From Phycisphaeraceae bacterium D3-23 (GTDB taxonomy: Bacteria > Planctomycetota > Phycisphaerae > Phycisphaerales > Phycisphaeraceae), in assembly GCA_039555135.1 (NCBI GenBank), contig CP114179.1:3038001-3102000 (forward strand): a stretch of 64,000 nucleotides of DNA. The letters run 5' to 3'. Shown here one piece after another: positions 19,878 to 30,038 of the stretch. The notes under the pieces were generated by a model. It had not been told where the DNA came from, searched no databases, and saw only the letters and a list, made by a program, of their open reading frames with translations. The number at the start of each line of letters is the position of its first letter. Position 1 is the stretch's first letter. A program made the position numbers and the translations under genes.

Positions 19878-21020
19878 TTGAAGACCACCCGCTCGCTGCT
19901 GATCGCCGGTATCGGTGCCGCGACGCTGTTTTCTGCGGCCGACGCCGGGGCGATCTACATCCGCCACGACCGCACCGCGACGCCGCACGAAGAACTCGCC
20001 GCGATGTTTCCCGCTACGGGGTACTTCGGCCGGACCTTTGGCCAGTCCTGTACCGCGACCCTCGTCTCCCCGACCCAGGTCCTCATCGCCGCCCACTGCG
20101 TCGACGGCAACTCCAACGGCAACCCCGACAGCTCCGTCGGCGGCTACGCCTTCGGCCTCGGACCCAACGTGCCCAACACCCTCAATACCAACATCGCCTC
20201 CATCGCCATCAACCCCGGCTGGGAATCGTCCAACGGCGACGCCGCCTTCGACTTCGCCGTCCTCACGCTCGAAAACCCGATCACCAACGTCACCCCCGCG
20301 ATGATCACCAGCGTCAACCCCGTGGGGCAACTCGGCGTCGCCGTCGGCTACGGCAGCCAGGGCACCGGCACCAGCCACTCCGACCCGCCCGGCTCCGACG
20401 ACAAACTCGCCGTCACCAACATGATCGAACGCTACGGCGACGACCCGGTCTACTCCGACTTCGACACCCTCCAGTTCGACTTCGACTCGCCCTTCGGCAA
20501 CCGAAGCACCTTCGGTTCAAGCACCCCGCTCGACCTCGAAGGCGCCACCGCCGGCGGCGACTCGGGCAGCCCGCTCATGGCACAGTTCGGCGAGGGCTGG
20601 TTCGTCACCGGCGTCCTCAACACCGGGTACAACGACTTCGACTCCGAATCCCAATACGGCGACATCTCCATCTACGCCGCCGTCCAGACCCCCTCCAACC
20701 TCGCCTGGCTCCAGTCACAGGGCCTGCGCATCATCGACGACATCACACCCGTCCTCGGCGACGCCAACCGCGACTGGTTCGTCGACCAGTCCGACCTCGA
20801 TATGGTCCTCGCCGACTGGGGCGACAGCGTCGCCCCCGGCACCGGCGCGGACGTCAGCGGCGACGGCCTCGTGAGCGCCGCCGACCTCGACATCCTCCTG
20901 GCGCAGTGGGGCGAAGGCACCGCCTACCCCGGCGTCGCGCTCGCCGCCGCGGTGGTCCCCGAGCCGGGCTCGCTCGCGCTGCTGTCGCTGGGCCTCTTGG
21001 CGATCCGTCGTCGGCGCTAA
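19878..21020 (+). CDS. PEP-CTERM trypsin-like serine protease with dockerin-like repeats
   Basis: 380 residues starting at TTG 19878 (GAGGAG 8-13 nt upstream). Signal peptide at 1-24 (SLLIAGIGAATLFSAADAGA). The chymotrypsin-fold catalytic triad is intact: His73 in VLIAAHCVDG, Asp125 in AFDFAVLTL, Ser229 in ATAGGDSGSPLM. Two dockerin-like Ca-binding loops follow (GDANRDWFVDQSDLDMVLAD and DVSGDGLVSAADLDILLAQ). The C-terminus VVPEPGSLALLSLGLLAIRRRR is a PEP-CTERM sorting signal, processed by an exosortase encoded elsewhere. It is a paralogue of the frameshifted protease at 16750-17964. The last 4 bp overlap the convergent phosphoesterase gene. Confidence 0.92.
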   Translation: MKTTRSLLIAGIGAATLFSAADAGAIYIRHDRTATPHEELAAMFPATGYFGRTFGQSCTATLVSPTQVLIAAHCVDGNSNGNPDSSVGGYAFGLGPNVPNTLNTNIASIAINPGWESSNGDAAFDFAVLTLENPITNVTPAMITSVNPVGQLGVAVGYGSQGTGTSHSDPPGSDDKLAVTNMIERYGDDPVYSDFDTLQFDFDSPFGNRSTFGSSTPLDLEGATAGGDSGSPLMAQFGEGWFVTGVLNTGYNDFDSESQYGDISIYAAVQTPSNLAWLQSQGLRIIDDITPVLGDANRDWFVDQSDLDMVLADWGDSVAPGTGADVSGDGLVSAADLDILLAQWGEGTAYPGVALAAAVVPEPGSLALLSLGLLAIRRRR

Positions 21021-22104: not shown

Positions 22105-22878
22105 TTAATCATCATTGACTATGAAGGTTTCCCAGCCGTCGTAGCTGCCACCATTTTCATCGGCGATCTCGCACAGCCGTGATGTAACCGAGTTGATGTG
22201 GTTCAGTTCACTCGGATCGTCTCGGTAAAGTTGCAGGCCAAAGGGCAAGTCGCCGTCACCATCTTCGGGGTCATCTTCTCTGGCAAACCCGATCATTGCT
22301 ACAGCTTTTGCCATCGCCTCGCGGTCGTCTTTGGCCGCAAAGTAAATCCAGTGATCGATCCGGCGTGGCTTGTTATGCAGGTCGTTATGTTCGGCGAGAA
22401 CATCGACGACAGAGCGGTCGGCCATCCAGCGGTGGCGTTCCGGGCTTGGATAAATGTAGTTGGTGTAACCTGACCATTCTGGGTCGGGCTTGGACCCGAA
22501 ATCGTAGGGGAGGTTCGTGGTCTGTTGAATCGCTTTGGCAGCGGCATCTTCGATGCGCCTATCCTGTCCTCCGCAACCGAAAAAATACAGTTCCCACTTG
22601 CCCATGTTGCGGAGTCTGCCAACGAAGTAGAGTTCGCTGTCACTGAGATGCGTAAAAAAGGCATCCTCGACATCACACATCACGTCGAATGATTGCTGGG
22701 TGCCCATGCCGTGTTCGCCGGGATCAGGTTGCTCGAATGTAAGCCTATAGACAGTGTCTGCGCCAGAAATCGGAGCATGGTCGATGTATGCCATGTTTAC
22801 AGACATCGAAGCGGGATGGTTATCAACCCGGCAGGGGTAGAAATCCCATTTGTCTTCAACCTCTATCTTATCGGGCAT
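22105..22878 (-). CDS. DUF695 and RraB-like protein
   Basis: 257 residues from ATG 22878. The N-terminal half (EDKWDFYPCRVDNHPASMSV, YRLTFEQPDPGEHGMGTQQS, WELYFFGCG) looks like DUF695. The C-terminal half (RIDHWIYFAAKDDREAMAKA, FGLQLYRDD, ENGGSYDGWETFIVND) resembles RraB, the protein inhibitor of RNase E. No enzyme motif is expected; in this family pair it is a regulator or of unknown role. The gene is visibly more AT-rich than its neighbours and has different codon use, which suggests acquisition by transfer. It lies 28 bp downstream of the TPR-YggX gene on the same strand. Confidence 0.8.
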   Translation of the reverse strand: MPDKIEVEDKWDFYPCRVDNHPASMSVNMAYIDHAPISGADTVYRLTFEQPDPGEHGMGTQQSFDVMCDVEDAFFTHLSDSELYFVGRLRNMGKWELYFFGCGGQDRRIEDAAAKAIQQTTNLPYDFGSKPDPEWSGYTNYIYPSPERHRWMADRSVVDVLAEHNDLHNKPRRIDHWIYFAAKDDREAMAKAVAMIGFAREDDPEDGDGDLPFGLQLYRDDPSELNHINSVTSRLCEIADENGGSYDGWETFIVNDD

Positions 22879-22906
22879 TGGATAATCCCCATTGGTTTTT
22901 GTTACC

Positions 22907-23542
22907 TTACGACCCCGCGAACGCCTCAACATCTTCCTTCGTCACGCCCAGCCATTCGAGCATGTGTGTTTCGTAGACGTCTTGGTGGGCGGGGTTGGAG
23001 AAGTCGAGGCGGAGCTCGTTGATGACTTTGGTGCCCATGCCGATCCATTCGCGCCAGGTGTCCTGGCCGAAGTGGGCGAAGATGTAGGCGCCGATCGGGC
23101 CGCGCATCGGCGGGTCGGGGAGCTTGTTTTGCGGCTGGCCCGTGCGTTTGTCGAGGACCTGGTCGCCGGCCGCCTCGACTTCCTGCTTGCGGGCGTTGTA
23201 GTCCTCGACTTCGGGCAGGTCGAGGCCGAGCTTCTGGATCAGCGCGGCCATGGACTTTTGGGGCATCACCTCGCCCAGCTCGGCGGCGACCTCGTAGCCG
23301 GTGAGCAGGAGCGGGCCGGCCTCGTCCTCCCGGCCCAGCTTGATGAGGGCCTGGCCCCGGGCGTGGTAGGCGCGCGACATCTGGCTGTTGTGCTCGATCG
23401 CCTTGGCGTAGGCGTCGGCCGCGTCTTCGAGCCGGTCGGCTTCCTTATAGACATTGCCCAGCGAGAGGAACGACATGTCGTCGGGTGCCTCCCGGCACAT
23501 CTGCTCCCACTGCGCGATCCGTTCTTCGAGGTTGTTACTCAT
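22907..23542 (-). CDS. TPR protein fused to a YggX-like Fe(II)-trafficking domain
   Basis: 211 residues. Residues about 15-90 are TPR units (APDDMSFLSLGNVYKEADRL, EDAADAYAKAIEHNSQMSRA). Residues about 145-205 (GPIGAYIFAHFGQDTWREWI, GMGTKVINELRLDFSNPAHQ, VYETHMLEWLGV) match YggX, including the W-x-x-W, T-x-x-I-N-E and M-x-x-(F/W)-L signatures. YggX alone is about 90 residues and protects Fe-S clusters from oxidative damage, so this is a larger fusion. It would be cytoplasmic. It heads a minus-strand pair with the DUF695/RraB gene. A palindrome separates its start from the divergent addB. Confidence 0.85.
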   Translation of the reverse strand: MSNNLEERIAQWEQMCREAPDDMSFLSLGNVYKEADRLEDAADAYAKAIEHNSQMSRAYHARGQALIKLGREDEAGPLLLTGYEVAAELGEVMPQKSMAALIQKLGLDLPEVEDYNARKQEVEAAGDQVLDKRTGQPQNKLPDPPMRGPIGAYIFAHFGQDTWREWIGMGTKVINELRLDFSNPAHQDVYETHMLEWLGVTKEDVEAFAGS

Positions 23543-23766: not shown

Positions 23767-26662
23767 GTGGCTGTGGAGACCGGCTGTAACATTTCGCGTG
23801 TGTTTCTCGACTGGGCCGGCCCGGCGCTCCCGGCCGCGGCGCGTTGGTTGCTAAGCGACACGCCCCAGCCCACGCCGGGCGACCTGTCGGGGCTGCTGGT
23901 TGTCGTACCGGGTGGTCGTGCGAAGCGTCGGCTGATTGAATTGCTCGCGCAGTTTGCGGTGGAGCGCGGTATGGCGCTGGTGCCGCCGACGGTGGTGACG
24001 GTCGGTGCGCTGGCGGATCGGCTGATGCCGTATCGTGGGGCGGATGCGCCGAAGGTTGCGGATCGTTCAGCGGCATTGCTCGTGCGGTCGGGTGTGCTGC
24101 GTGATGCGGGGCCGGCGCTTTTATCGACGTTGACGCCGTCGCCGCCGGGGCTTGACGACTGGCCGGGGTGGTGGGCGCTTTCGGGGCAACTGGAGACCCT
24201 CGCGGCTGAGCTGGGTACGGCCGGGCTGACGCCGGCGCAGGCGGCCGCCGAGTGCGATGCGCTGTCGGGCGATGAGCGATGGGCTGCGGTCGGCGAGCTC
24301 GATGCGCGGTATCTCGCGGCGCTTGGGGCACAGGGTTTGATCGACCCGCACGCCGCGCGGCGCGACGCGGCGGCAGATCCGCAAGCCCAGACGCAGGTGC
24401 CCTGCGTCGTGCTCGTCTCGACGCCGGACCTCCGTCCGATCCACACACGCCTGCTCGCGCGCTACGCGGCGACGGTGCATGCGATGGTCTTCGCGCCGCA
24501 AGAACATGCGGCGGGGTTTGATGCGTGGGGCGTTCTCAACGCGGCGTACTGGCTCAAGCAGCCGCTGCCCGCGACCGACGACGCGATCGCGTTTGTTGAC
24601 AAGCCGGGCGACCAGGCGGAGGTGGTGTTCGATGCGCTCGCGCGGTGGAGCGAGGCCGAGCCGGTCGCGGCGGACAGCGTCACGGTGGGGCTGGGCGACG
24701 CGGCGCTGGCGGGCCCGATCGAGCGGACGCTGGAGCTGGCGGGCGTGCCGGCGCGGTCGGTGGAGGGCCGACCCGTCTCGCGGTCAAGGCCCATCCTGCT
24801 GCTTGAAGCGCTCGGGGAGTACGCGGGCACAATGCGTTTTGACCGTCTCGCGGCGCTGCTGCGACACCCCGATACGCTGACGTATGCGTCCCGCGCCGCG
24901 CGCGACGCCGGCGCGACGCTTGACCGTCAGGACGGCGGCTGGCTGGGCCTGCTCGACCGCTACGCGAGTGCGCATTTGCAGGGCGAGGTCACGGGCCACT
25001 GGCTGGGCGATCCCGCGCAGCGCGGTGCGCTGGCGGCGATCCACGACGCGGTGCAGGCGCTGGTCCCGGAGCAATCGCCGACGGCGCGTCGCCCGCTCAC
25101 GCTGTGGGCCAGGCCGATCGGCGAGGCGCTCGCGCAGGTGTACGGCGACGCGGCGCTGCGTCGACACGCGCCCGAGGATCGGCCCGTGGTGCTGGGCCTG
25201 GAGGCGATCGGCAACCTGCTCGACGCGCTCGGCGCACTGCCCGGTGATGCGGGGTACATCCCGGCGACGACGTTCGCGCAGGCGATCCGTTTCGTGCTGC
25301 GGCAGGTGGACGCGACGCCCGTGCCCGAGCCCGGCGGCGCGTCGGCCGTCGAGCTGGTCGGGGTGCTTGAGCTTGCGCTCGACGATGCGCCGCGCGTGGT
25401 GGTTGTCGGCGTCAACGAAGGCGCGGTGCCCGAGCCGATCGCCGAGCACCCGATGCTGCCGCGCGCCGTGCGCGCGGCGCTCGGGCTGCATGACGACGAC
25501 CACCGGCTGGCGCGTGAGCAGTTGATGCTGACGTCGGTGGTGTCGAGCCGGGCGGCGGGGGACTGTGTGCTGGTCGCGGGGAAGGTGAGCCCGGCGGGCG
25601 ACCCGCTGATGCCCAGCCGGTTGCTCTTACGCGGCAGCGATGCGGAGATGTCGCGGCGTGTCGCGCGGTTTTTTGAAGAGGGCAACAAAGCACCGCCGCG
25701 CCCCCGCGCTGCTCACGCCCGGCGAGCACGACCGCTTCCTCATCCCGTCGCCGATGCTCGACGAGCCCGCGCTCACCGAGCTGTCGGTCACCGCCTTCCG
25801 CGACTACCTCGCGTGCCCGTACCGGTTCTACCTGAAGCACATCCGCAAGCTCCGTCCGCTCGACGACCGCGCGGTCGAGCTTGACGGCGGGGCGTTCGGC
25901 TCGCTCGCGCACGCCGCGCTGCGCGTGCTGGGAGACGAAGCCCTTGCCGGTGAGGACCGCCAAGACAAACTATTTGAGCATCTCAGCGCCGCGCTCGACC
26001 AGCGCCTGCGCGAGCAGTACGGCCCACACCCCCGCGCGGCGGTGCGGGTGCAGGCCGAGCAGCTCCGCTACCGGCTTGAAGCGGCGGCGCGGGTGCAGGC
26101 CCGGCATGTCGCCGAGGGCTGGCGCGTCGTGCATGTCGAGGGCGCGGGGCGGTCGGGCCGGCTGTCGCAGACGATCGACGTCGATGGCGAGCCGTTCACT
26201 CTGACCGGCAAGATCGACCGCATCGATCGGCACGAAGACGGCCGAGTCCTCGTGATCGACTACAAGACCTCGAACAGCGCGAAGTCCCCCGACGCGACGC
26301 ACCGGGCGGGGCCCAGGAACGACAAGCGGTGGACCGACCTGCAGCTCCCGCTTTATCGCGGGCTGAGCGCGGAACTGGGTGTGGAGGGTGATCGGATCGA
26401 CTTGGCGTATTTCAATGTGCCCAAGTCGCTGGCGGACGCGGCGCTGTCGGTCGCGCCGTGGACCCCGAGCGAGATCGATGAGGCGATCGCCGTGCGCGAC
26501 GATGTGATCCGCGCGCTGCGGGCGCGTTGCTACTGGCCGCCGAGCGAGGAGCCGCCGCGTTTTGAGGACGGGCTCGCGGGTGTGTGCGCGGATGAGGCGG
26601 AGGAGCGGGCGCGGATCGTGCAGCGCAGCGGCACGGGGTTGGGGGGGGAAGGCGATGCCTGA
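23767..26662 (+). pseudogene. addB: AddB-like nuclease subunit of the AddAB recombination complex, one frameshift
   Basis: About 965 residues in two frames. Frame one (GTG 23767 onward) contains LLVVVPGGRAKRRLIELLAQ in place of a Walker A, as in alphaproteobacterial AddB, then VVVVGVNEGAVPEPI and LAREQLMLTSVV of the inactivated helicase region. At the CCCCC run (25701-25705) the frame shifts by one. Frame two continues LLTPGEHDRFLIPSPML, VTAFRDYLACPYRFYLKHI and the PD-(D/E)XK nuclease motifs GKIDRIDRHEDGRVLVIDYK. AddAB resects double-strand breaks for RecA loading. The Fe-S cysteine quartet of other AddB proteins is not evident. It ends with an 8-bp overlap with addA. The break may be a sequence error, since both halves look conserved. 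Confidence 0.82.
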
Positions 26663-29600
26663 ACGAACACACGAAGATGCCGCGAGCGATCCTGATACCA
26701 TCGATGCCTTCATCAAGCGGACCTACGGCCGCGTGGCTGGTGACGACCTCGCCGGGCATCCCCCGGCTGCGCCGCACCTGCTGATCCGCGCCTCGGCGGG
26801 GACGGGCAAGACGTATCGGCTGACCACGCGCTACCTCCGGCTCCTGCGCGCGGGCGAGACGGCGGAGCACATCCTCGCGACGACGTTCACGCGCAAGGCG
26901 GCGGGCGAGGTGCTGGGCCGGGTGCTGGGCTGGCTCGCGCGGGCGTCGGTCGACCCGCGCGAGCGCGCGGGGCTCGACTTTGCGCTGGGCGGGTTCGGGC
27001 TGAGTGAGCAAGAGTGTTTGGTGATGCTGCGTCGGCTGGTCGATGGGCTGAACCGTTTAGCGATCGGCACGATCGACAGCTTCTTCAACCGCGCGGCAAG
27101 GGCGCTGCGGTTTGAGCTCGACCTCCCCGCCGAGCCACGGCTGACCGACGAGCACCACCCGGCCGCGCGCGAGCTTCGCTACGACGCGATCCAGCGTGTG
27201 CTCGGCGAGGCAGCGGCGACCGACGACGGGTTCCAGACGCTGATCGAGCTGCTCCGCCGGGTCCATCACGACACCGCAGACCGTTCCGTGACCGAGGCGA
27301 TCGACGCGCTGGTGGTCGAGCTGCACGACGTCTATCGCCAGCACGACGACCGCGCGCTTTGGGCGAAGCTGGACCCGCCGCCGGTGCTGAGCCGGGAGCT
27401 ACTCAACACGGCGGTGATGGATGTCGTTGCGCTGGGCGAACATATTCCAGCGACCAAGACGGGCGCGCCGCGCAAGCACTGGGCTACGGCGTACCAGACG
27501 ATCAGCTTGGCGGCGCAGCGGCACGACTTTGATGCCATCCTCGGCCATGAGATCGCAAAGCGTTTGCTCGAAGCGGGTGACGGTGCGGTATACAGCGGAT
27601 GCGAGATACCGGCCCTCTGGCAGGCGGCGCTGACTCCGATCCTCAAGCACGCCCGTGCGCAGACGTTGCAGCAGCTTGCGCAGATGACGGAGTCGACTTA
27701 CGACTTGCTGGATGCGTTTTCTTCGCAGTACGAAGACGCGAAACGAGCGGCGGGGGTGCTGCTGTTCAGCGACCTGACGCACCTGCTGTCGCGCGCGATG
27801 CCGACGCTCGGCGAGGATGTCGCGGAGCAGTTTTACTACCGGCTCGATTCGCGGGTGACACACCTGCTGCTCGACGAGTTCCAGGATACGTCGCTGCCGC
27901 AGTGGCGGGTGCTCGAGCCGTTCGCACTCGAGGTCACGGCCGCGGCGGACGGCGGGCGGAGTTTTTTCTGTGTCGGCGACGAGAAGCAGGCGATCTATGG
28001 CTGGCGCGGCGGCTGCGCGGAGCTGTTCAGCGCGGTGGAAGAGTTGCCCGGCGTGACGCCTTGGACGATGACGCAGAGCCGGCGGTCGTCGCCCGTGGTG
28101 CTGGATACGGTTAACCAAGTGTTTTCGACGCTGACGACCAACGTTGCGTTTGAGGATAAGCACGACCGCTGGGCCGGCGCGGCCGAGCATTGGGCAGCGC
28201 GGTTCGAGACGCACGCGGCGCACGACACAACGCTGCCCGGGCACGTGCTGCTGAAGACGACGGCCCCGAGCGACTCCGATGCGGCTTACGACGCTGATGA
28301 CGATGGTGATGGGGACACTGGGGCCGCATCGCCCCACGAGGTCTACTGCGCCGAGCATATTGCGAGGGTGGCAATAGAGACGCCCGGCACAACGGTTGGC
28401 GTGCTGCTGCGGCGCAAAAAGGCGGCGCGGGGGCTGCTGCATCGGCTGCGTGCGTTGGGCGTCGCGGTGTCGGAGGAGGGCGGCAACCCGATCGACCACA
28501 CGCCGGCGGTGGGCGCGGTGTTGTCGGCTATCCAGCTCGCGGACCACCCGGGCGACACGGTCGCGGCGTTCCACGTAGGCAACTCGCCGCTGGGTGGGGT
28601 GCTCGGCATGGACTGGCGGGACAAGGCGTCGGTCGGGTCGGCGGCGCTGCGGATTCGGCGGGCGGTGCTGGACCGTGGCTACGGCGAGACGGTCGCGCTG
28701 TGGTGTAGGGCCGTCGCACCGTCATGTGATGCGCGGTCGCTGCGTCGGCTTGAGCAGTTGGTCGGGCTCGCGCAGCAGTACGACCACGACATGGCCGGCG
28801 CGGTGCGGGGCGGTGGGGCGCTGCGGGTAAGCGGGTTTGTGGAGGTGGTGCGCCGCGCGCGGGTCGAGTCGCCGACGCCCGCGGCGGTGCGGGTGATGAC
28901 GCTGCATGCGGCCAAGGGCCTGGAGTTTGATACGGTCGTGCTGCCAGACTTGCACGCGACGCTGAGTGCGAACGACCACAACGCGCTGGTGATGCTGGAT
29001 CGCGATTCGCCGCTGGATGCGCCGCGCCGAATCGTGCGTCGGCTCAAGCGGGGCAAGCTCGCGGCGATCGGGCTGGAAAAGCTGGCGGATCGAGAGGACG
29101 CCTGGCAGCGCGGCGAGGACTTGTGCCTGCTTTACGTGGGGATGACACGCGCTAAGCACGCGCTGCACCTGCTGGTCCCGCCGCTAAAGGCGACGAAGAC
29201 CGGGCTGTCGTCGGTCGGGCGGACGAATCTGAGCTACGCGGCGATCCTGCGGCAGGCGCTCGCGCCGGATTTCGATGAAACGGCTGAGGGTGGTGAGGTG
29301 TTGTACGAGCACGGCGATGTGGGTTGGGCGGCGGCGTTGCCGGGTATGGCTTCAGAATCGTCCGATGAAGCACCGGGTTCGTTAGTCGAGCCGCGTGGCA
29401 CGATTACGCTCGTTCCGGAGCGTCGTCCGACACGCGGGCTGCCCGAGCGTCGGCCTAGTGATGGCGCGGAAGACACGCGGGTGCATGCGACGGATTTGTT
29501 GAAGCTGAGCGCGTCGGGTGGCCGGGGGTATGGTAGCGCGATGCATGCGGTGTGTGAGTTGTTGGGCTTCGTCGATGAAGAGACGCTGCCGGGCGACGAT

Positions 29601-30038
29601 GTGGTCGCGGATGCGCTGCGGCGGGCCGGCCAACCGGATGGGTCGGAAGACGTCGCGGCTTTTGCGGGGCGGCTGCGTGGGATGCTCAAGGCCGAGCCGG
29701 TGCGGTCTGTGCTGTCGCGGGAAGGCGCGGCCGAGCTTTGGCGTGAGCGCGGGTTCGCGGTGGTGCTTGATGGTCGGCTGGTGCGTGGCGTTTACGACCG
29801 GGTGCATGTCTGGCGTGATGCGGCGGGGAAGGCGACCCGTGCCCGGCTGATCGACTTCAAGACCGACCGGCTTCCGGACGCGGGCCCAGACGCGCTGGCC
29901 GAGCACTACGGCGGGCAGGTCAACGCGTACCGCGCGGCGCTGTGTGCGATGCTGGGGATTCAACCCGACGCGGTCGAGGCGATGCTGGTACTGACGGGCG
30001 ACGCGGTTGTGATTCCCGTGGATGGGCCGCCCGACTGA
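26655..30038 (+). CDS. addA: AddA-like UvrD-family helicase/nuclease
   Basis: 1127 residues; ATG 26655 overlaps the addB stop (ATGCCTGA). All SF1A helicase motifs are visible: Walker A IRASAGTGKTYRL (about 46-53), Ia TTFTRKAAGEV, II HLLLDEFQDTS, III FFCVGDEKQAIYGWRGG, IV SRRSSPVVLDTV, V VMTLHAAKGLEFDTVVLP, VI LLYVGMTRAKHAL. The C-terminal RecB-type nuclease has RLIDFKTDRLPDAG and QVNAYRAAL. It pairs with AddB to unwind and resect broken DNA ends, with the second nuclease site acting on the 3'-ended strand. Coupled translation with addB supports a stoichiometric complex. Confidence 0.93.
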   Translation: MPERTHEDAASDPDTIDAFIKRTYGRVAGDDLAGHPPAAPHLLIRASAGTGKTYRLTTRYLRLLRAGETAEHILATTFTRKAAGEVLGRVLGWLARASVDPRERAGLDFALGGFGLSEQECLVMLRRLVDGLNRLAIGTIDSFFNRAARALRFELDLPAEPRLTDEHHPAARELRYDAIQRVLGEAAATDDGFQTLIELLRRVHHDTADRSVTEAIDALVVELHDVYRQHDDRALWAKLDPPPVLSRELLNTAVMDVVALGEHIPATKTGAPRKHWATAYQTISLAAQRHDFDAILGHEIAKRLLEAGDGAVYSGCEIPALWQAALTPILKHARAQTLQQLAQMTESTYDLLDAFSSQYEDAKRAAGVLLFSDLTHLLSRAMPTLGEDVAEQFYYRLDSRVTHLLLDEFQDTSLPQWRVLEPFALEVTAAADGGRSFFCVGDEKQAIYGWRGGCAELFSAVEELPGVTPWTMTQSRRSSPVVLDTVNQVFSTLTTNVAFEDKHDRWAGAAEHWAARFETHAAHDTTLPGHVLLKTTAPSDSDAAYDADDDGDGDTGAASPHEVYCAEHIARVAIETPGTTVGVLLRRKKAARGLLHRLRALGVAVSEEGGNPIDHTPAVGAVLSAIQLADHPGDTVAAFHVGNSPLGGVLGMDWRDKASVGSAALRIRRAVLDRGYGETVALWCRAVAPSCDARSLRRLEQLVGLAQQYDHDMAGAVRGGGALRVSGFVEVVRRARVESPTPAAVRVMTLHAAKGLEFDTVVLPDLHATLSANDHNALVMLDRDSPLDAPRRIVRRLKRGKLAAIGLEKLADREDAWQRGEDLCLLYVGMTRAKHALHLLVPPLKATKTGLSSVGRTNLSYAAILRQALAPDFDETAEGGEVLYEHGDVGWAAALPGMASESSDEAPGSLVEPRGTITLVPERRPTRGLPERRPSDGAEDTRVHATDLLKLSASGGRGYGSAMHAVCELLGFVDEETLPGDDVVADALRRAGQPDGSEDVAAFAGRLRGMLKAEPVRSVLSREGAAELWRERGFAVVLDGRLVRGVYDRVHVWRDAAGKATRARLIDFKTDRLPDAGPDALAEHYGGQVNAYRAALCAMLGIQPDAVEAMLVLTGDAVVIPVDGPPD

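Follow-up and report, generated by a model that had tools for sequence, protein, structure and literature searches.

A TPR-fused YggX domain in a planctomycete class, with aspartate at the position of the N-terminal cysteine in the window's family

Results

The locus encodes a TPR-YggX fusion protein

The window, i.e., the whole stretch of 64,000 nucleotides analysed here (contig CP114179.1 of Phycisphaeraceae bacterium D3-23), encodes a protein that joins a TPR half to a YggX domain, beside two divergently oriented genes for nuclease- and helicase-like proteins (Table 1). The original prediction had placed a 211-residue reading frame at this site with YggX as its C-terminal third, and both the list of reading frames and Pfam bear this out. 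Its domain assignment and boundaries were also right, since the profile search proposed as the test for residues 145–205 returned the Pfam family PF04362 (Iron_traffic) at residues 133–201, corresponding to profile positions 9–77 of 88. The match scores 42 bits (E 8.1e-11), well over the family's gathering score, which is 27. A check for a separate YggX gene, also proposed there, gave the same picture: PF04362 matches a single gene in this 4.62-Mb single-contig genome, which is 98% complete, and no second YggX was found. The domain is here the C-terminal part of a longer protein and not a stand-alone form of about 90 residues.

Table 1. Coordinates of the genes, domains and cysteine-series positions described in the text (window numbering).
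Feature	Position	Strand	Basis or remark
TPR-YggX fusion gene	22907..23542	-	ATG start, 211 aa; reading frame and Pfam
Three TPR helix pairs, residues 3-104	23231..23536	-	Pfam TPR_1/TPR_2/TPR_8, AlphaFold2 helices, fold matches
Linker helix, residues 115-125	23168..23200	-	AlphaFold2
YggX (Iron_traffic) domain, residues 133-201	22940..23146	-	PF04362 and PDB sequence search
Asp-131	23150..23152	-	Counterpart of Cys 1 in four-Cys relatives and, by way of these, of E. coli Cys-7
Thr-134	23141..23143	-	Cys 2 position in relatives; window pattern DTGT
Gly-159	23066..23068	-	Cys 3 position in relatives
Thr-162	23057..23059	-	Cys 4 position in relatives
AddB-like nuclease gene, divergent neighbour	23767..26662	+	Frames 23767/23971-25884 and 25640-26662
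AddA-like helicase-nuclease gene	26592..30038	+	UvrD-helicase and PDDEXK_1 over cut-off; downstream of AddB-like gene

The search of PDB sequences divides the protein in the same manner. Matches to the YggX chains 2mzy (E 8.5e-5), 1xs8 (2.9e-4), 1yhd (8.9e-4) and, weakly, 1t07 (0.016) fall within residues 134–203, and the N-terminal part matches TPR proteins, among them 3ma5 and 2kcl (residues 4–51), which we take to be Salinibacter ruber chains. The profiles TPR_2, TPR_1 and TPR_8 all exceed their cut-offs, with their best stretches inside residues 26–77. The NCBIfam equivalog for the oxidative damage protection protein (NF003817) gave 41.5 bits and did not reach its cut-off of 74.

The fusion is not due to chance: the protein of a congener is 87% identical to that of the window, and among 82 aligned proteins, the window's included, PF04362 matches all 82 and TPR_8 matches 80 (E 0.01). 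Seven residues of the YggX core are invariant in this alignment (P145, G151, K172, I174, N175, E176 and L179), as are four ahead of it (L28, A86, G90 and P110).

From the alignment of 82 sequences, AlphaFold2 gave a model of the window protein with a mean pLDDT of 95.1 and a pTM of 0.86. The predicted TPR helices span residues 3–18, 22–34, 38–51, 56–68, 72–88 and 92–104; after the linker helix follow two strands (128–130 and 137–140) and four helices (149–157, 160–177, 184–198 and 202–210). Compared with solved TPR domains, the TPR half reaches Z scores of 14.0–16.1 over 99–110 residues in the best 50 rows, slightly higher than the value of about 13 that the fold tool deems uninformative for helical repeats. 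These domains include those of SycD/PcrH and Hop/CHIP, which have the same three-repeat fold (Z about 14–16 over about 100–108 residues) at 14–19% identity; the fold alone is common to them and no shared function is implied. Structure searches with full-length models returned lists filled by TPR matches, leaving no room for YggX chains.

Gene neighbourhood

Both pieces of the divergent AddB-like gene have TIGR02786 (AddB) as their top NCBIfam match, under its cut-off. The second piece scores 115.7 bits against PDDEXK_1, which is over the Pfam cut-off, and the first has no Pfam match. The two frames overlap at 25640–25884 (+) and correspond to one frame in a congener (G131, locus L087); the split looks like a frameshift, whether real or due to sequencing. 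For the AddA-like gene, the top NCBIfam matches are a RecB-like helicase and AddA, both under cut-off. A divergent AddB-like gene occurs within 2.5 kb in 7 of the 10 loci of f1, the window's family (the window's locus counted), and in 22 of 70 loci of named genomes that extend 1.5 kb or more upstream; some of the latter come from the same genomes as the f1 loci. In the 39 loci from other families, the same query found none beside the gene (E 1e-6, at which a distant AddB could be missed). According to PMC11078426, yggX of gammaproteobacteria adjoins mutY, a repair gene, whereas the window's gene has addB/addA-like and DUF695-RraB neighbours. The repair-gene neighbourhood is a mild hint towards DNA repair.

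Directly downstream of the fusion gene, one protein (22105–22932, minus strand) combines DUF695 (80 bits) with RraB, regulator of ribonuclease activity B (69 bits). Its longest reading overlaps the stop of the TPR-YggX gene, and a later in-frame ATG (M-P-D-K) is the likelier start. No tblastn match to this gene at 1e-6 was found in the other loci compared for addB. Further away, a trypsin-like protease (19878–21020, plus strand) carries a PEP-CTERM signal over cut-off and a dockerin just under cut-off.

Conserved neighbours were sought by comparing reading frames of at least 80 residues from 59 loci, all against all between families, a design that is blind to the addB pair internal to f1. If one sets aside the gene and its antisense frames, which are artefacts of high G+C, no neighbour among the 25 groups with the widest spread over families is common to more than four of them. 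Some groups are common to f76, f89 and f95, one of which resembles proC by eye.

Distribution of the fusion

PF04362 is present in 171 of the 298 genomes of the class sample, in 37 of 41 in the family sample and in 47 of 392 in the phylum sample, one of the latter under the Pfam cut-off. We read the architecture in 90 genomes of the class, a set that does not include f13, a family with a PF04362 match. Outside family f21 every genome read (80/80) has the full-length fusion, as judged by a whole-protein profile (lowest score 212 bits), and in f21 it is absent from all ten. The YggX proteins of f21 are stand-alone and their translations retain one cysteine near the start (C-A/V-K-L). The expectation that YggX is normally stand-alone thus fits E. 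coli and fails in this class, where fusion is the rule. Outside the class, the fusion was found in 10 of 10 genomes read from f76, f89 and f95 and in none of the five read from f74, f83, f101 and f109.

Nearly all matching genomes have a single copy, and two matches were seen solely in G150 (class sample) and G319 (family sample). The latter genome, 66% complete, has its two TPR-YggX matches on two contigs and is the sole double of f1 in the sample of 41, either from mixed strains or from a duplication.

In named genomes, one peptide pattern retrieved 423 relatives. Among the titles of the best 80 of these 423, Phycisphaerae, Phycisphaerales, Phycisphaeraceae and Planctomycetota predominate; the exceptions include a single Bacteroidia entry, a single Singulisphaera entry and two entries for uncultured bacteria. 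We found no mention of YggX joined with tetratricopeptide or planctomycetes in the open-licence papers of PubMed Central that were searched. As far as these searches go, the class-wide fusion, the four-to-none cysteine series and the aspartate rule described below are apparently undescribed, the component parts being known.

Stand-alone relatives of the TPR half

With a profile built on the TPR half, a stand-alone relative was found in each of the six f21 genomes tested (E 1e-16 to 1e-21), and other TPR matches in these genomes reach 4e-12 at best. Four of the relatives lie in open frames of 105–149 residues and two in longer stop-free frames. These small proteins, of about 100 residues, are the best match to the window's TPR half in the six genomes; unlike the window protein they have no YggX domain, and their gene lies elsewhere in the genome, in none of the six adjacent to yggX. 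Near the relative of G112 is a MutY-like glycosylase (L250, 7566–8699, plus strand) and near that of G450 a DnaK-like chaperone (L255, 3153–4940, minus strand), both recognised by eye.

A stand-alone TPR protein would be attractive as proof of a partner for YggX, and we rejected it as such. Besides the lack of adjacency, three genomes with stand-alone YggX (G407, G424 and G566, 77–79% complete) have weak TPR matches (5e-10 to 3e-9), and TPR matches are widespread, occurring at E 1e-8 in 18 of 21 tested genomes, some of them without YggX. In two genomes (G048 and G107), a short TPR relative occurs in addition to the fusion. The fold of the TPR half, together with its stand-alone relative in f21, is a hint that it may dock YggX on a partner.

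A series of cysteines at four aligned positions

Some relatives of the window protein carry a C-x2-C...C-x2-C pattern in their YggX domain, of which the window protein retains none (Table 1). In a stand-alone relative with all four cysteines, the first aligns with residue 7 of 1xs8, the cysteine of E. coli YggX, and in the alignment of relatives the second pair sits immediately ahead of the first conserved tryptophan. The cysteine near the YggX N-terminus is described as critical in PMC11078426, and the title of a 2003 paper, as cited in PMC11078426 and PMC2989944, reports Cys-7 as essential in Salmonella YggX. As this residue is absent from the window protein, its function may be changed or lost. 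The Fe-S protection function that the original prediction had assigned to it is therefore not simply transferable, given Asp in place of Cys-7 and a score well short of the equivalog cut-off.

We counted the patterns at these positions in 146 proteins (172 minus 26 identical ones), i.e., 144 TPR-fused and the two stand-alone proteins of f83. Only four patterns occur: all four cysteines (35 proteins), the first alone (54), none (55), and the first with the third (2); no fifth pattern was seen in the 146. Since the 80 named rows were chosen as best matches to the window, these counts are skewed towards the window's kin. Positions 2 and 4 are cysteine-free in every row that lacks the full set, and position 3 in all but two. 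The joint absence of positions 2 and 4 is as expected if the four residues formed a shared metal site, though it falls short of proof. The TPR-fused rows read with four cysteines come from f7, f8, f16, f18, f76, f89 and f95, and from five of the seven rows of f10. No zinc-finger family is among 25 of the 30 families listed as matching the 82 aligned proteins.

The first position follows a stricter rule. Wherever its cysteine is absent, the residue is aspartate (55 of 55 proteins), so that all 144 fused proteins have either C or D there, and nothing else occurs in the whole set of 146. In f1, aspartate is found in 31 of 31 rows. In the genetic code, a change from Cys to Asp takes two base changes. 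That two changes are needed and no third residue is seen suggests that the first position probably keeps a role, and a position with two states that has switched repeatedly argues for the same.

Order of cysteine loss

To place these patterns in a phylogenetic context, we selected 101 fused proteins out of 144 (below 80% identity to one another) and built a tree from them, leaving out the four cysteine columns. It was rooted with seven rows of other classes; the direction of change depends on this outgroup, and the bootstrap is not fully settled. Nearest the root are the rows of f7, f8, f16 and f18, all with four cysteines. Proteins with one cysteine lie further in: f20, the placement of which is weakly supported, and f2, f4 and f5 of the window's order. 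Support is 100/100 for the clade that includes the window protein (41 rows, from f1, f3 and named genomes), and aspartate arises on its stem. Cysteine returns within this clade in L179 (first position) and in the pair L100/L184 (first and third). Aspartate is also present in two f10 rows that are nested in a four-cysteine group and have lost all four cysteines, and it arises separately in L204. The minimum number of changes among the four states on the tree is seven.

Read from this root, the tree suggests that the ancestor of the planctomycete form probably carried a C-x2-C...C-x2-C putative metal site in its YggX domain. On the line to the window's family, all cysteines but one were probably lost first, and the remaining one, Cys-7, was then replaced by aspartate.

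Links to Fe-S cluster assembly and oxygen respiration

Family f83, of another planctomycete class, has a stand-alone YggX with four cysteines. In both of its genomes (77 and 79% complete) the gene directly follows sufU and ends a sufC-D-S-U cluster (L128, 8012–12270; L129, 8009–12396); in L129 the end of sufU and the start of yggX almost touch. All four suf genes were found in both genomes by tblastn. Pfam identified SUFBD_core and a class-V aminotransferase in L128 and a SufC-type ATPase in L129, i.e., each in one genome, and sufU, the frame of which is interrupted by an apparent frameshift, was recognised by its motif. The sample of the class containing f83 has 12 genomes and three PF04362 matches, two of them above cut-off. 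Stop-free frames of 590 (L064) and 639 residues (L128) could have suggested a fusion in f83 too; we ascribe them to the high G+C of the genome.

We also searched for suf genes in 140 loci (one of them a 100-base placeholder) with flanks of about 3 to 8 kb, shorter at contig ends. Queries with SufU, SufC, SufD and SufS (1e-6) found none beside a TPR-fused gene in the loci outside f83. A SufC match in L216 is 25% identical and was taken as an ordinary ABC ATPase.

At the level of genomes, the presence of YggX follows that of COX1. Among the 298 genomes of the class, 165 have both, 108 neither, 19 COX1 only and 6 YggX only, i.e., 273 agree and 25 are discordant (Fisher test, 1e-52, a statistic that ignores kinship, the association being largely between families). 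Co-occurrence with SUF is positive and weaker than that with COX1: 89 genomes have YggX and SUFBD, 17 SUF only, 82 YggX only and 110 neither, with SUFBD counted at E 0.001, including a few weak matches (1e-12 to 1e-43). SUFBD is patchy across the class (106 of 298 genomes). SUFBD_core has no match in the window genome (a single contig, 98% complete), and all 14 control genomes were positive. The window genome thus has YggX without SUF, and SUF is not required. It encodes an IscU-type and an IscA-type protein adjoining each other.

YggX is described as a weak Fe(II) binder and proposed as an iron donor in PMC3989283, is listed in PMC4982691 with other proteins that may donate iron when clusters are repaired, and is proposed to handle Fe(II) for Fe-S proteins or to keep Fe(II) off DNA in PMC1360075, PMC3989283 and PMC4982691.

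Discussion

The window protein shares with YggX of E. coli and Salmonella the domain family, the W..W and I-N-E core, and a single match in its genome, and in its class YggX is found mostly in genomes with COX1, a further likeness. It differs from them by its TPR fusion, by Asp in place of Cys-7 and by its score under the equivalog cut-off. A second comparison is with the planctomycete YggX proteins that have four cysteines (stand-alone in f83, fused elsewhere): the domain is the same, the fused ones have the same whole architecture, and the cysteines make the difference. What YggX does biochemically is, to our knowledge, unsettled, and we know of no iron site placed on its fold.

We favour, at roughly one chance in two, the explanation that these oxygen-respiring cells have a YggX particular to their lineage, docked by its TPR half, handling iron, and with a reduced site that probably bound metal. 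The three-repeat TPR domain would dock on a partner, and the short helix would join it to the YggX domain, which would most likely handle Fe(II) close to DNA or to Fe-S proteins that are prone to oxidation. Aspartate is able to serve as an iron ligand; hence iron binding or a redox-insensitive function would be expected of the window's domain, not a dead one. In this way the swap from cysteine to aspartate may leave in place a potential ligand for iron that is not open to oxidation by superoxide. A more speculative extension, which we regard as rather unlikely, would have YggX as a whole descend from a putative metal-binding domain of SUF/Fe-S assembly with the C-x2-C...C-x2-C pattern, the single Cys-7 of proteobacterial YggX being its last remnant, and planctomycetes holding the series down to an oxygen-safe aspartate on a TPR arm.

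The main alternative holds that, in the window's family, the YggX domain no longer has its iron chemistry and serves as an adaptor or a structural module; the work would then fall to the TPR part, e.g., as a small chaperone-like binder. The loss of all four site cysteines speaks for this, as do the equivalog score, the conservation of the TPR part and the presence of peptide-binding TPR domains among the fold matches. Yet the YggX core is conserved at least as much as the TPR part, and a first position restricted to C or D in every fused protein is unlike a loss of function, so that we regard this alternative as rather unlikely. A second alternative is that the planctomycete domain is a zinc knuckle that binds protein or nucleic acid, with a YggX-related fold and no iron handling, in which packing took the place of zinc in the window's family; the addAB genes would then point to DNA repair. 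Small zinc domains often allow such a replacement, and the four-cysteine pattern of 35 proteins, lost at several positions together, would fit it, as would the divergent addB of the window's family. The retention of the I-N-E motif of the YggX core, the failure to find addB in the 39 loci of other families, and the location of the stand-alone four-cysteine version in suf clusters in both f83 genomes are at odds with a zinc knuckle, and we consider it unlikely.

The fusion could finally be an ordinary marker of the lineage, fixed early in planctomycetes, with the function of stand-alone YggX and aspartate as a neutral swap. A single copy in nearly all matching genomes and the scarcity of shared neighbours (none common to more than four families among the best 25 groups) are compatible with this. 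A neutral swap sits poorly with a two-base change that happened repeatedly on the tree, with no alternative residue among the 146 proteins, which makes this account quite improbable.

The natural series from four cysteines to one and to none suggests where a metal would sit on YggX and supplies ready-made variants for testing it. One end of the series is connected with suf clusters, and in this class there is a connection with oxygen respiration. With its sole YggX as the tail of a TPR protein and the cysteine turned to aspartate in the relatives read from its family, the organism studied here offers a natural test of how YggX works.
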